A stretch of DNA of 34,950 nucleotides, taken from contig JASJBK010000029.1 in the NCBI GenBank assembly GCA_030066555.1, positions 1 through 34,950 on the forward strand, given 5' to 3'. The stretch comes from Halieaceae bacterium. GTDB lineage: Bacteria > Pseudomonadota > Gammaproteobacteria > Pseudomonadales > Halieaceae. Made by a program: the position numbers and the translations under genes. A model generated the notes under the pieces. It was not told the origin of the DNA. It saw only the letters and a program-made list of their open reading frames with translations, and did no database searches. Below are positions 6,172 through 23,026 of the stretch, in pieces (positions within the stretch are counted from its first letter, which is position 1; every line of letters begins with the position of its first letter).

Positions 6172-7566
6172 GTGAACGTTCAACAACAATTCCGCCGTTT
6201 GCCGTCTATCGACGCCCTGCTCGCCAATATGCCTGAGGAAGTGGCGCGCTGGGGTCATACCCAACTGGTCGAAGCCCTCAGGCAACAGCTTGACCAGCTG
6301 CGTGAGGCCATAGCCGCCGGCATTTCGGCTGACATCTCGTCGGAGAGCATCAGGCAGTCCGCCCTGGAGACACTGGCCGCACGTTCGCGCGCCACGTTGA
6401 TTCCAGTGTTCAACCTGACCGGCACAGTCCTGCACACCAACCTGGGGCGCGCCAACCTGCCGCCGGAGGCTATTGAAGCTATAGGCACCGTCGCGGCCGG
6501 CGCCAGCAATCTTGAGTTTGACCTTGCAAGCGGCAAGCGCGGCGACCGGGAATCCCACGTCGAGTCGCTGATCTGCGAAATCACCGGCGCCGAGGCGGCG
6601 ACAGCCGTGAACAATAATGCCGCCGCGGTGCTGCTGGTACTCAATACCCTGGCGCTGGGTCGCACCGTACCGGTATCGCGGGGCGAGCTGGTCGAGATCG
6701 GCGGCTCGTTCCGAATTCCCGAGGTGATGTCGCGCTCGGGGTGCTCACTGGTCGAGGTCGGCGCCACCAACCGCACCCACCTGGATGACTATCGGCACGC
6801 TATCGACAACACCACCGCCCTGTTGATGAAGGTGCATACCAGTAACTACGAGATCCAGGGCTTTACCGCCAGCGTCGCCGAGCCAGACCTGGCGGTACTG
6901 GCAAACGAGCACGACCTGCCCTTCGTGATCGACCTGGGCAGCGGCAACCTCGCAGACTTCAAGGCCCTTGGATTGCCCGATGAGCCCACGGTCGCCCAGG
7001 CGCTGGCCAACGGCGCTGACCTGGTGACCTTCAGCGGCGACAAGCTATTGGGTGGGCCGCAAGCGGGTATTGTCGCCGGCCGCGCCGACCTCATAGCAGC
7101 GATCAAGAGGAATCCTCTCAAGCGCGCCCTGCGCCTGGACAAGATGACGCTGGCCGCACTCGCAGAGGTTCTCACGTTGTACCGGGACCCCGAACAGCTG
7201 GTAAGGAAACTGCCCACGCTGCGACTGCTGACACGGCGGGCATCCGATATCCAGGCACAAGCCAAGTCCTTGCTGCCCGACATCGCCCGCGCCCTGGCAC
7301 CCAAGTTCCAGGTCAGCGTGGAAGACTGTCTGAGCCAGATCGGCAGCGGGTCGCTACCCGTCGACACCCTGCCCAGCGCCGCAATCCGGATCGCGCCTGA
7401 ATCTGGCGACGACAGTGACGTGCGCAAGCTGGCGCAAAGGCTTCGAGAGCTCCCGGTTCCCGTAATTGGCCGGATCCACAAGGGCGCACTGTGGCTCGAC
7501 CTGCGCTGCCTGGAACCGGAACAGCAAACAGGGTTTGCAGACCAACTGGCCGACCTCACCCTGTGA
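6172..7566 (+). CDS. selA: L-seryl-tRNA(Sec) selenium transferase
   Basis: 464 aa, GTG start; PSIDALL...[14 protein letters not shown]...[16 protein letters not shown]...[17 protein letters not shown]; immediately followed by selB. Confidence 0.96.
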
Positions 7567-9497
7567 TCATCGCGACCGCTGGACACGTTGACCATGGCAA
7601 GACCTCCCTGGTTCGACAGCTCACCGGCGTAGAGACCGATACCCTCGCTGAAGAAAAGGCCCGTGGACTCTCGATCAACCTCGGGTACGCCTACCTGCCC
7701 TGCGCCGACGGCAGCCGGCTGGGCTTTATCGACGTACCCGGGCACCAGCGCTTCATCAACACCATGATCTCGGGCATCAGCGGTATCGATATGGGCCTGC
7801 TGGTGATCGCTGCGGATGACGGCCCAATGCCCCAAACCCTTGAGCATCTCGACGTGTTGGACATACTCGGCGTCGAGCAGCTCTCTGTGGTGATCAGCAA
7901 GATCGACCGCGTCAGCGAGTCGAGGCTCCAGGAGGTCGAGCAACACATCCACGGTCTACTCAATGGAAGACGCTGGCATGACGCCGCACTCTTCCCTGTC
8001 TCCAGTGAAACCGGCAGCGGTATACCGGCACTGGAGACCTACCTGCAGCAGCAGGCGCAGCGCATCCGTGCGCGCCAGGCCGAGGGTGGATTTCGACTGT
8101 CTATTGACCGGGCCTTCTCAGCCAAGGGTGCCGGCCTGGTCGTCACCGGTACCGCCAATGCAGGCAAGGTGCTCACCGGAGACCGCTTGCTACTGCTTCC
8201 CGGCAACAGGGAAGTCCGCGTCCGCGATCTGAGGGCCCACAATGAACCGGCGACGGCCGCAGTAGCCGGCCAGCGAGTCGCCCTTAACCTTGCTGGCAGC
8301 GTTTCGGCTTCAGATATCGAGAGAGGTGACTGGCTGGTCGATGCGGACCATGCACTATCCTCCGAACGGCTTGATGTATCGTTCACGCTGCTGAAGGGCG
8401 CACCCTTCCCCCTCAAGCACCTGGCACCGGTAAAACTCCACATTGGCGCCAAGCGTGTTGCCGGGAAGCTGGCGCTGGTGGAGGGATCGTCAGGACGCCT
8501 GCACGCAGGAGAAAGCTGCATCGCCCAGTTGCTGCTGGATGAGCCGGTCAATGCGATGCTGGGCGATCGCTTCCTGCTGCGGGATACCGCGGAGAATGTC
8601 ATCCTGGGTGGCGGAGCGGTGCTGGACCCGCAGGGTCCGAAGTTCGGCAAGTCGCGCCCGGGGCGAATCACCTGGCTGCAGGCGATGCAGGCAGACACGC
8701 CGGAAGACGCGCTGGCCCAGCTTATTGCAAAGGGTCAGTTGGTCGAGCTGAATCGATTCTGGGCCATCCGCAATCGCCGCCTGGATCAGGTCGAAACACT
8801 GCTGCCAGCTGATGCAAAGCGTTTCGAATACGATGGTCGACACTGGGCCATCGGGCAAAAGCAGTGGTCCGAGGCCAGCCAGCATCTCAATTCACTGGTG
8901 GATGACTGGCATGAGACTCACCCGCACAAGCCTGGAATCAAGATGACCGAGCTCAAGGCTGCCGTGAGCCGCGACTACCAAACACCGCTGGTCATGGCCG
9001 CGCTGGTTTCCAGGCTAAAATCAGGCGACCTGCTGCTGCACGATGGACACATCAGTCGCACAGGCTTCCGGAGAACCGAGTCCAAAGAAGTCCAGTCACA
9101 CTGGAAGTCCATGCGCCAGCACCTGGAACAGTGCCAGCTCAGGGTTCCCTTGTTCTCAGAGCTGGCCGCCGCCATCCAGGTGCCCGAGCCAACACTCAGG
9201 CAGGTCGTCAAGGAGGCGACCCGCAGTGGTAACCTGCACCGCCTCAACGACAAACGCTACGCCCTGCCCGAGCACCTGCTGCATTTTTCCAGGCGCGTGG
9301 TCGAGGCAGACCGCGAGGGTGAAGAGCTGTCAGTGATCAATCTCAAGGCGCGCTTCCAGAGCGGACGCAACCTCACCATCGAGCTGCTGGAGTATTTTGA
9401 TAGCATTCACTTCACCCGCCGAGAAGGTAATACGCGTATTGTCATCAACCCTGCGGCTGCCCTGGAGCGCTTCGGGGCACAGGGAACCTCTACATAA
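7563..9497 (+). CDS. selB: Selenocysteine-specific translation elongation factor
   Basis: GTG start at 7563 ([45 protein letters not shown]) overlapping the selA stop (GTGA); GTPase motifs [13 protein letters not shown]-terminal winged-helix-like region; longest ORF begins at 7491. Confidence 0.96.
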
Positions 9498-9501
9498 CCA
9501 C

Positions 9502-9595
9502 GGAAGAGCGACATCCCCGGTGGGGTGCCTGGTCTTCAAAACCAGTGAGGCGCTGACGAAGTGCCTGGTGGGTTCGACTCCTACCTCTTCCGCCA
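9502..9595 (+). tRNA. selC: tRNA-Sec (UCA anticodon), CCA encoded
   Basis: GGAAGAGC GA CATCCC-CGGT-GGGGTG (6-bp D stem) CCTGGT-CTTCAAA-ACCAG (anticodon TCA) T-AGGCGCT-GACGA-AGTGCCT (7-bp long variable arm) GGTGGG-TTCGACT-CCTACC TCTTCCGCCA; starts 5 nt after the end of selB. Confidence 0.95.
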
Positions 9596-15064: not shown

Positions 15065-15832
15065 TCAGGGTTGCGGTGCGTCGAAGACCTGCTGCATGGC
15101 GGCCAGCACCACAGACGGATCGGAGCGACGCTGGTAATCCTCTGAAACATCCATCCACAGTACCTTGCCATCTGCATCGATCAGCAACGTGGTTGGTACC
15201 GGTAAGGCCTCGGTGTCATCCCCCGGCGGCGCCGAGTGGTAGGCGGTATTGCGCAAGCCGAACTTGTCGGTGACGGCCAGCTGTCGGTCCGACAACATGC
15301 GCGCCTGCAAGCCGTGGAGGTGGCGTTCTTCTGCGATTTCCTCAGGCAGGTCGGTACTCACAGTCACGACCTGCACCCCACGCCGATCGAACTCAGCGCG
15401 CAATTCTTCCAGCCGGCGCAACTCGCCGACACAGTAGGGTCACCAGTGTGCCCGGAAGAACTTGATGAGAGCGAGATGGCCATGAAGGCTGTCAGAGTCA
15501 AAGGTCTCGCCATTGCCATCGACAGCGGTGAAATGCGGGATAGTGTCGCCAACCTTGATCGCCCCACCCTCTTCCAGAACCTGCGGACTGATGTAAATGG
15601 TGAGCGGCAAAAACAGGCCGATGAGTATGCCTACAACAGGCGGCAAACCACCCAGCAAGCTGGTCCCCTTGATGTACGCGGCGAAACCCAGAGCGGAAGC
15701 GGCGAGAAACGCGACGACAAAGGGCGTACGGTCATCGGGAAGACTGACCTGGTGAACCAGGTAGAACCACAACACGGCGGTGCCCAGTGCAAGGACGAGC
15801 GAAGCAATGCCAAGTTTGGTTCCTGTCTTCAT
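15065..15832 (-). CDS. Membrane-anchored peroxiredoxin/thioredoxin-like selenoprotein (AhpC/TSA-type redoxin); UGA at 15440-15442 read as Sec131 in a U-P-Y-C motif
   Basis: ORFs 15440-15832 and 15065-15421 are in the same frame, separated by one TGA: ...HLALIKFFRAHW-U-PYCVGELRRLEELRAEFDRRGVQVVTVSTDLPEE...; continuous Trx-fold homology across the TGA; three N-terminal hydrophobic segments; selA/selB/selC present. Confidence 0.9.
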
Positions 15833-21411: not shown

Positions 21412-21948
21412 ATGATTGAGTATCACAACCCGGACGCGGCGGTGGGAATCGAGGAGACACCCTACGACCTGTCCGTGGCGATTCGCGGGGAAGAAGCCAC
21501 CTCGATTGGTCTGCTGGCGAACGGGTTTCCGGATTCCGTGGAATTCCTCGATGCGCTGGGTGAGTCTCTCAAGGCGCTCCGGCCCGGCATCGTGATACGC
21601 GCCTACAACAAGGGCAATGCCTCAATACCCGCCGGTCAGACACTGCTGGGCGAGATCGGCGGCGAATGTGTGGGAGTGGTTGCCGCCTACGGCCACTGAG
21701 GCTCCTGCACTACCGGCACCGTGCGTGACGGCATCAACCTCGCCCAACTGGGCATCCCTGCGGTGGCGCTGGTCACCGAGGAGTTCTGGCCCCAGGGCGA
21801 CTTCGTCGCCCAGTCCCTGGGCATGCCGGGTGTACCCCGCGTCAAACTACCTCACCCTGTCGCCGGCACCGGCGCGGTCAACATGCGCGAGGTGGCAGAT
21901 GCCATAGCGCCCCTGGTAATCCGTGCGCTCGAGGCAACGGATGACTGA
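21412..21948 (+). CDS. UGSC-motif selenoprotein; UGA at 21697-21699 read as Sec96
   Basis: ORFs 21412-21699 and 21721-21948 are in one frame (offset 309 nt) with a single TGA between them: ...GGECVGVVAAYGH-U-GSCTTGTVRDGINLAQLGIPAVALVTEEFWPQG...; AAGGAG Shine-Dalgarno at 21401-21406; sel machinery in the same window. Confidence 0.9.
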
Positions 21949-23026
21949 TTTACTCTCTGCAGCTGACGAGGCGGAAGCGCTGGAAGATCTGCACAGCCGC
22001 GGGTGTACAGATGGCCTGCCGGTTGTGATTCCCACCCGCGAGCGCGTCGCTCGCATGGTATTGGCCTCCGGCCAGGATGGCGACATGGTCCTCGGCACCA
22101 TGGGCCCCGGCCACGGTATTGCGACGATTGAAAACGTCGCCGTCGCCGCCGTAATGGCGGGTTGCCTGCCAGACTACATGCCGGTGGTAGTAGCGGCAGT
22201 GAAGGCGGTGATCGATCCGATGTTTGACCTGACAGAGATGCAGGCGACCACTCACTGCACGGCGCCATTGGTGATCGTAAACGGGCCTGCACGCCATACC
22301 TGCGGCCCCATCGCCTCCGGCACCGGTGCCCTCGGGCCCGGCCATCGCGCCAATGCCTCCATCGGGCGCGCACTGCGGCTGACGATGATCAATATCGGCA
22401 AGGCCCGCCCGGGCAGCTCCGACATGGCGCTGCTGGGCCACCCTGGCAAGTTCACCTACTGCCTGGCCGAAGACGAGGAGAATAGTCCATTCCCGCCACT
22501 GCACGTCGACCTGGGTTTCGAAGCGGATGACAGCGTGGTCACCGTGTTGGGTGCGGAGGCACCGCATTCAGTACTGTTCGCCGGTGACGGCGATGACCCC
22601 GACGCCTACAAGGTGTTGCTCGACCTTCTGGCCATGGGACTGGCCAATGCGCCCAGCAATAACGCCATCCTGACAGGTGGCGCCGCCACCGTGGTATTGA
22701 ACCCGGAACACAGCGGGGTATTCCAGAAGGCGGGCTTGAGCAGACAGGACATCGCCCGTGAACTGTATGAGCGCTGTTTCCTGGAACCGGAAATGGTCAA
22801 GCACCTGATGTCGGCCTTCGCTGGTGACAACCCCTCCCGTCGCATGGCCTTCACAGGCCCCGAACAGATCCTGATTCTGCAGGCGGGAGGCAGCGGGCTC
22901 TACTCCATGGTTATGCCATCATGGTGCGCCGGCACCCACACTAATGCCGCTGTCAGCGTAAAGGTCGAGGCTGACATGTTCTGCGAAATTCCCGGCCTGG
23001 CGGCATCAGCAGGCCAGACTTCCTGA
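21941..23026 (+). CDS. Conserved protein of unknown function, translationally coupled to the UGSC selenoprotein
   Basis: ATG at 21941 overlaps the selenoprotein stop (ATGACTGA); ~361 aa, MTDLLSAADEAEALEDLHSRGCTDGLPVVIPTRERVARMV...; longest ORF begins at 21923. Confidence 0.85.
   Translation: MTDLLSAADEAEALEDLHSRGCTDGLPVVIPTRERVARMVLASGQDGDMVLGTMGPGHGIATIENVAVAAVMAGCLPDYMPVVVAAVKAVIDPMFDLTEMQATTHCTAPLVIVNGPARHTCGPIASGTGALGPGHRANASIGRALRLTMINIGKARPGSSDMALLGHPGKFTYCLAEDEENSPFPPLHVDLGFEADDSVVTVLGAEAPHSVLFAGDGDDPDAYKVLLDLLAMGLANAPSNNAILTGGAATVVLNPEHSGVFQKAGLSRQDIARELYERCFLEPEMVKHLMSAFAGDNPSRRMAFTGPEQILILQAGGSGLYSMVMPSWCAGTHTNAAVSVKVEADMFCEIPGLAASAGQTS

Follow-up and report, generated by a model that had tools for sequence, protein, structure and literature searches.

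GrdB, of glycine reductase, and PrdB, of D-proline reductase, are reductive enzymes. The roles of selenocysteine (Sec) in these two proteins are established knowledge and have been reviewed (PMC13188914). The UGSC family is a known family of selenoproteins with no assigned function (PMC2398784; PMC13188914), as the earlier note on this DNA had also stated; a thioredoxin-like fold has been suggested for it in the literature. Figure S1A of PMC2398784 includes a domain, Unknown_1, that is fused to UGSC and is reported there from a restricted set of organisms. According to the same source, domains fused in this way usually contain a conserved Cys (PMC2398784).

The window analyzed here, a 34,950-nucleotide stretch from a Halieaceae bacterium (contig JASJBK010000029.1), contains a UGSC gene, an adjoining gene for a protein of an unnamed family, and most of a Sec decoding system. 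The features discussed below are:

6172-7566, plus strand: selA, L-seryl-tRNA(Sec) selenium transferase (TIGR00474, 591 bits)
7566-9497, plus strand: selB, Sec-specific elongation factor with C-terminal winged-helix domain (TIGR00475, 411 bits; PF09107, 43.5 bits)
9502-9595, plus strand: tRNA-Sec, anticodon TCA (Rfam RF01852, 72.5 bits; ARAGORN)
21412-21948, plus strand: predicted UGSC selenoprotein gene, 178 aa, Sec96 (TGA) and Cys99 (PF24696 and NF041046 scores; TGA kept in relatives)
21697-21699, plus strand: predicted Sec UGA codon of the U-G-S-C motif, TGA conserved in 36 aligned relatives
21713-21731, plus strand: predicted SECIS hairpin, CCG 21713-21715 with CGG 21729-21731, CAC 21717-21719 with GUG 21725-21727, loop CGUGC 21720-21724
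21941-23026, plus strand: partner protein of an unnamed family, 361 aa, its ATG overlapping the UGSC stop codon by 8 bases

The UGSC frame runs from an ATG at 21412 through an in-frame TGA (21697-21699) to a TGA stop codon at 21946-21948. The motif codons, TGA GGC TCC TGC, read U96, G97, S98 and C99, which is the U/C-G-S-C signature of PF24696. The earlier note had joined two ORFs here into one 178-aa UGSC protein with Sec96 and Cys99, and the frame, coordinates and length are all as it gave them. The readthrough protein matches PF24696 at 134.5 bits (gathering cut-off, 25 bits) across residues 29-174, that is, on both sides of the TGA, which upholds the joining of the two ORFs into one selenoprotein. 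In the comparison with the NCBI model that the note proposed, the protein does match NF041046 (UGSC_fam), but its 97.6 bits lie under the curated equivalog cut-off of 125 bits. Conservation around U-G-S-C, on which the note had staked its reading, is present in homologues on both sides of the TGA. Of 146 genomes of relatives, 32 contain a UGSC match that exceeds the cut-off of the family; the motif is specified with TGA in 27 of these and by a Cys form only in 5. An in-frame UGA, conserved flanks on either side of it and Cys homologues, the marks of a bacterial selenoprotein, are thus found together, and 21412-21948 is, on sequence grounds, one predicted recoded (readthrough) selenoprotein gene.

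The genome has the means to decode it. With selD on another contig of the same genome, selA, selB, selD and tRNA-Sec are all present. Across the surveyed genomes selA follows the TGA form closely, being found in 24 of the 27 genomes with TGA-type UGSC and in none of the 5 with Cys forms only (Fisher p 4e-15 for the association of TGA-type UGSC with selA over all 146 genomes). Two of the three TGA-type genomes without selA are less than 90% complete. The third (G077, locus L023) is 96% complete; its UGSC keeps the TGA and the invariant codons described below, and its partner gene is truncated. A broken partner in a genome without selA fits decay following the loss of Sec decoding, and this UGSC gene is possibly such a decaying copy.

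The selA-selB-tRNA-Sec cluster (6172-9595) lies about 12 kb upstream of the UGSC gene on the same contig. UGSC and selA are less than 14 kb apart in seven genomes, this one included, and 85 bases apart in one of them; such closeness is far above that expected from random placement (p about 3e-9 in a simple model), as though the genes for Sec decoding and those that depend on it were travelling together. The window holds a second likely selenoprotein on the minus strand (15065-15832), of AhpC/TSA type (PF00578, 90.9 bits), whose ORF reads on through a TGA at 15442-15440 as ...HWUPYCVGEL (UxxC). A CGGCG-AGUUG-CGCCG hairpin follows that TGA, with a loop that starts 16 nt past the UGA.

Downstream of the UGSC TGA, codons +6 to +10 (21715-21729; GGC ACC GTG CGT GAC) are identical in all 36 sequences of the window clade, which come from two phyla (Gammaproteobacteria and Acidimicrobiia). 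All other conserved degenerate positions in the aligned region use two to six synonymous codons. Five invariant codons amid such variation indicate selection on the RNA. The hairpin that covers them, CCG.CAC[CGUGC]GUG.CGG, has six pairs and one mismatch, and its loop starts 20 nt past the UGA. Consensus folding and pair counts indicate that it can form in all 34 sequences aligned for folding; the middle outer pair changes from C-G to U-A on both sides in four Acidimicrobiia, a single compensatory change. In keeping with the published bacterial SECIS model (PMC13188914), the second and third loop positions are G and U. The core energy is -6.0 kcal/mol, against -7.5 or lower in that model, and in its context the window sequence prefers other folds, the conserved hairpin not being the minimum-energy one. 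In the other UGSC clades this position is taken by a cleaner hairpin with a loop that is mostly AGUNU. Its closing pair alternates between C-G, G-C and U-A, with 17 compensatory cells at this one pair in the sister clade. The conserved hairpin at 21713-21731 is the predicted insertion signal for Sec96. The earlier note had thus located the signal in the correct stretch downstream of the UGA but chosen the wrong pairing. Its short CCGT-GCGTG-ACGG hairpin (21719-21731) loses a pair in the same four Acidimicrobiia sequences that carry the compensatory change, its longer stem (21703-21710 with 21721-21728) is neither conserved nor part of the consensus fold, and the folding check it had suggested was uninformative on the single sequence of the window (z 0.69).

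In a tree of 100 UGSC domains the window protein falls in a clade of 33 sequences, all with Sec, that is set apart by a long branch of 1.8 (SH-aLRT 99). Cys forms make up 11 of the 100; they have Cys at the Sec position and reflect four changes, each outside the window clade. Members of the window clade that were tested score 98-115 bits on NF041046, three of them 100-115 and all under 125, as compared with 128-155 bits for six of seven members of other clades (Sec and Cys forms both) and 120 bits for the seventh, a Sec member. Forming a separate clade under the NCBIfam cut-off, the window protein is best regarded as a variant of a known family.

The second gene, at 21941-23026, begins inside the end of the UGSC gene (ATGACTGA, 21941-21948). 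Its product has no match in Pfam or NCBIfam (up to E 10 in both) or, by sequence, in the PDB, matches no recognizable catalytic family, and has no homologue in the viral contigs searched. Conserved blocks of the partner are D24-G-L-P27, T103-T104, G115-P116 and R136-A-N-A139. A relative of this partner adjoins UGSC in 30 of 30 loci from the relatives' genomes, truncated in one, and is placed either after UGSC, mostly with an overlap of 4-8 bases, or before it. An independent scan with the partner alone, covering one genome per species for 84,980 species, gave 539 confirmed candidates. In the best-scoring 80 of these, to which the pairing figures apply and not to more distant homologues, a UGSC domain lies on the same strand and mostly abuts the partner in 74 loci; another locus has UGSC on the opposite strand, L089 starts at a contig end, L091 ends close to one, and L075, L105 and L133 have the partner without UGSC. 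A single ORF containing just one in-frame TGA spans both proteins in at least nine loci (L078, L083, L095, L096, L097, L100, L102, L123 and L127). Hosts of the pair include Pseudomonadota, Actinomycetota, Chloroflexota, Rokubacteria, Acidobacteriota, Binatota, Bacillota and, with the Cys form, haloarchaea. Candidimonas nitroreducens and Natrialba asiatica are examples of cultivable hosts with the Cys form. The UGSC gene thus belongs to a conserved unit of two genes, 21412-23026, whose pairing is obligate on sequence comparison. The earlier note had missed this second half, as it had the distinct all-Sec clade, the Sec machinery elsewhere in the window and the relation to GrdB described below.

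Some of these loci deserve comment in their own right. One Chloroflexi genome (JACPQD) has at least six partner loci (L087, L094, L111, L113, L126 and L133), five of them with UGSC, and this multiplicity points to related enzymes with different substrates. The contigs of L072, L102 and L121 bear the titles Klebsiella pneumoniae or Bordetella parapertussis; they come from metagenome bins, and since their sequences cluster with those of environmental bacteria the titles are probably wrong.

The AlphaFold2 model of UGSC, built with 51 homologues, is confident (pLDDT 94.8, pTM 0.89). Its strands and helices alternate and form a sheet of Rossmann/flavodoxin-like type, in which strand three leads into a helix that begins with Sec96. 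Foldseek returned only generic flavodoxin-like matches for it (TM about 0.47), and neither UGSC nor the partner has anything of note in the PDB by sequence. The thioredoxin-like fold suggested for the family was rejected, the model being Rossmann/flavodoxin-like and thioredoxin absent from the Pfam, NCBIfam and Foldseek matches listed. The model of the partner is likewise confident (pLDDT 91.3). Its Foldseek matches, to class I fumarase and cyclic amide hydrolases, are weak (TM about 0.25), too weak to name the fold, and were not used for that purpose.

In a pairwise hhalign comparison with a shallow alignment (Neff 1.9) of GrdB proteins gathered from Bacillota genomes, UGSC matched GrdB with a probability of 95.7 and an E value of 9.4e-9 over 88 columns. 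The alignment pairs UGSC with UGTC, the 'GIP' strand that follows, and PHPVAG with PHPLG. PrdB alone reached 64.6, and reversed controls 4-16 overall and 4-5 for GrdB. These comparisons indicate that UGSC is homologous to the Sec domain of glycine reductase GrdB, a kinship predicted at the level of profiles. PF07355 is absent both from the matches of the window protein and from the genome of the window. The partner is unrelated by profile to GrdE, PrdA, GrdB and PrdB; for GrdE and PrdA (PF09338) the probability is 0.1 or lower, and its candidacy as a pyruvoyl subunit of that kind was rejected. The GrdB match, the lack of a PF07355 gene and a partner unlike GrdE and PrdA together suggest a stand-alone GrdB-like Sec domain that acts outside the glycine and proline reductase systems.

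The surroundings of the pair are less constant than the pair itself. No wider conserved operon was found among the loci examined. Recurrent neighbors are CoA-transferases, SDRs, TctC receptors, acyl-CoA dehydrogenases and synthetases, P450s and MmgE/PrpD proteins; in the window, the pair comes after an acyl-CoA dehydrogenase and before Rieske proteins. Thioredoxin reductase was considered as a constant neighbor and rejected, a thioredoxin-reductase-like gene occurring in only three loci. The neighbors suggest catabolism of organic acids or CoA esters and no more; since they vary between genomes, the substrate is not readable from context.

We favor, with moderate confidence, the reading of 21412-23026 as a two-subunit selenoenzyme that combines selenol chemistry of the GrdB type with a novel subunit for the substrate. 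The hairpin at 21713-21731 would direct SelB to insert selenocysteine 96 into the small Rossmann/flavodoxin-like subunit, and the second gene, presumably coupled in translation through its 8-base overlap, would make the 361-aa partner. That the two proteins form a physical two-subunit enzyme is highly probable, and the partner probably builds the substrate pocket together with the UGSC subunit. By homology with the Sec domain of GrdB, the Sec96 selenol would probably attack an activated carbon in its substrate, a small organic acid or a CoA-linked compound, and a leaving group would be expelled. The selenium intermediate would next be resolved by Cys99, giving a Se-S bond for cellular thiols to reduce. 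Attack by the selenol on an activated carbon, with Cys99 as the resolving thiol and reduction as the net outcome, is a proposal that we judge to have close to an even chance. We name a small organic acid or CoA-linked compound as the substrate only tentatively.

Other readings of the locus have been weighed against this one. The most basic is that the TGA is an ordinary stop, leaving two short proteins or a decaying gene. Mechanically the frame is indeed two ORFs, but distant relatives are conserved across the TGA, Cys replaces it in genomes without selA, the five codons 3' of it are invariant and the genome encodes the Sec machinery; on these computational grounds the ordinary-stop reading is refuted, and we give it hardly any weight. 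A thioredoxin-like thiol-disulfide oxidoreductase, which the literature has proposed and for which the partner would be a dedicated client or reductase, is suggested by the resemblance of UxxC to redox motifs and by the thioredoxin-reductase-like gene near the pair in three loci. The confident model of UGSC speaks against it, however, with its Rossmann/flavodoxin-like sheet, as do the missing thioredoxin match (among the Pfam, NCBIfam and Foldseek matches listed) and a profile match that goes to GrdB instead; the partner, moreover, is large and conserved and carries enzyme-like invariant blocks, and the oxidoreductase reading is improbable.

Somewhat better placed, and still unlikely, is an enzyme of lyase, hydrolase or isomerase type that depends on selenium and uses Sec as a covalent nucleophile, with no net reduction taking place. 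The CoA transferases, MmgE/PrpD proteins and acyl-CoA enzymes nearby are typical of acid and CoA-ester turnover, and the partner's weak structural matches, class I fumarase and cyclic amide hydrolases, would suit such an enzyme. Those matches have a TM of only about 0.25, however; the conserved U-x-x-C pair favors a redox step, and the relatives GrdB and PrdB are reductive. The GrdB-type selenoenzyme remains the preferred reading.

A near-constant partner, fusions and kinship to GrdB turn UGSC into a concrete two-subunit enzyme that can be expressed and assayed. Annotation protein by protein misses half of the UGSC system, and the NCBI model (NF041046) misses the window clade at its cut-off. 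With the unnamed adjoining partner as the overlooked second half, the function of UGSC is now open to testing.

Compared with what has been described, the window protein resembles the UGSC family (PF24696; NF041046; 'UGSC-containing protein' in PMC2398784) in motif, length and overall alignment. It differs from its nearest NCBIfam-type relatives in gene order, UGSC preceding the partner here and following it there, and its clade has a different SECIS hairpin. Unknown_1 (PMC2398784) is probably of the same protein family as the partner at 21941-23026; unlike the fusion domain reported there, the partner is here a nearly universal neighboring gene. With GrdB and PrdB (PF07355, TIGR04483) UGSC shares a U-G-T-C/U-G-S-C site that occupies the same position of an alpha/beta domain and precedes the 'GIP' strand and a PHP motif, and also the pairing of a Sec subunit with a second subunit, sometimes fused. 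PrdA and PrdB form one reading frame in two Bacillota genomes (L181, L182), a parallel to the UGSC-partner fusions. The pair may constitute an unrecognized class of two-subunit selenoenzymes, with selenol cleavage of the GrdB type in aerobic bacteria, a substrate subunit of new fold and several paralogues in some Chloroflexota, a possibility that we rate just short of even. Unlike GrdB, UGSC is without the GrdB N-terminal domain, and unlike both GrdB and PrdB it is found largely beside catabolic genes of aerobic type.
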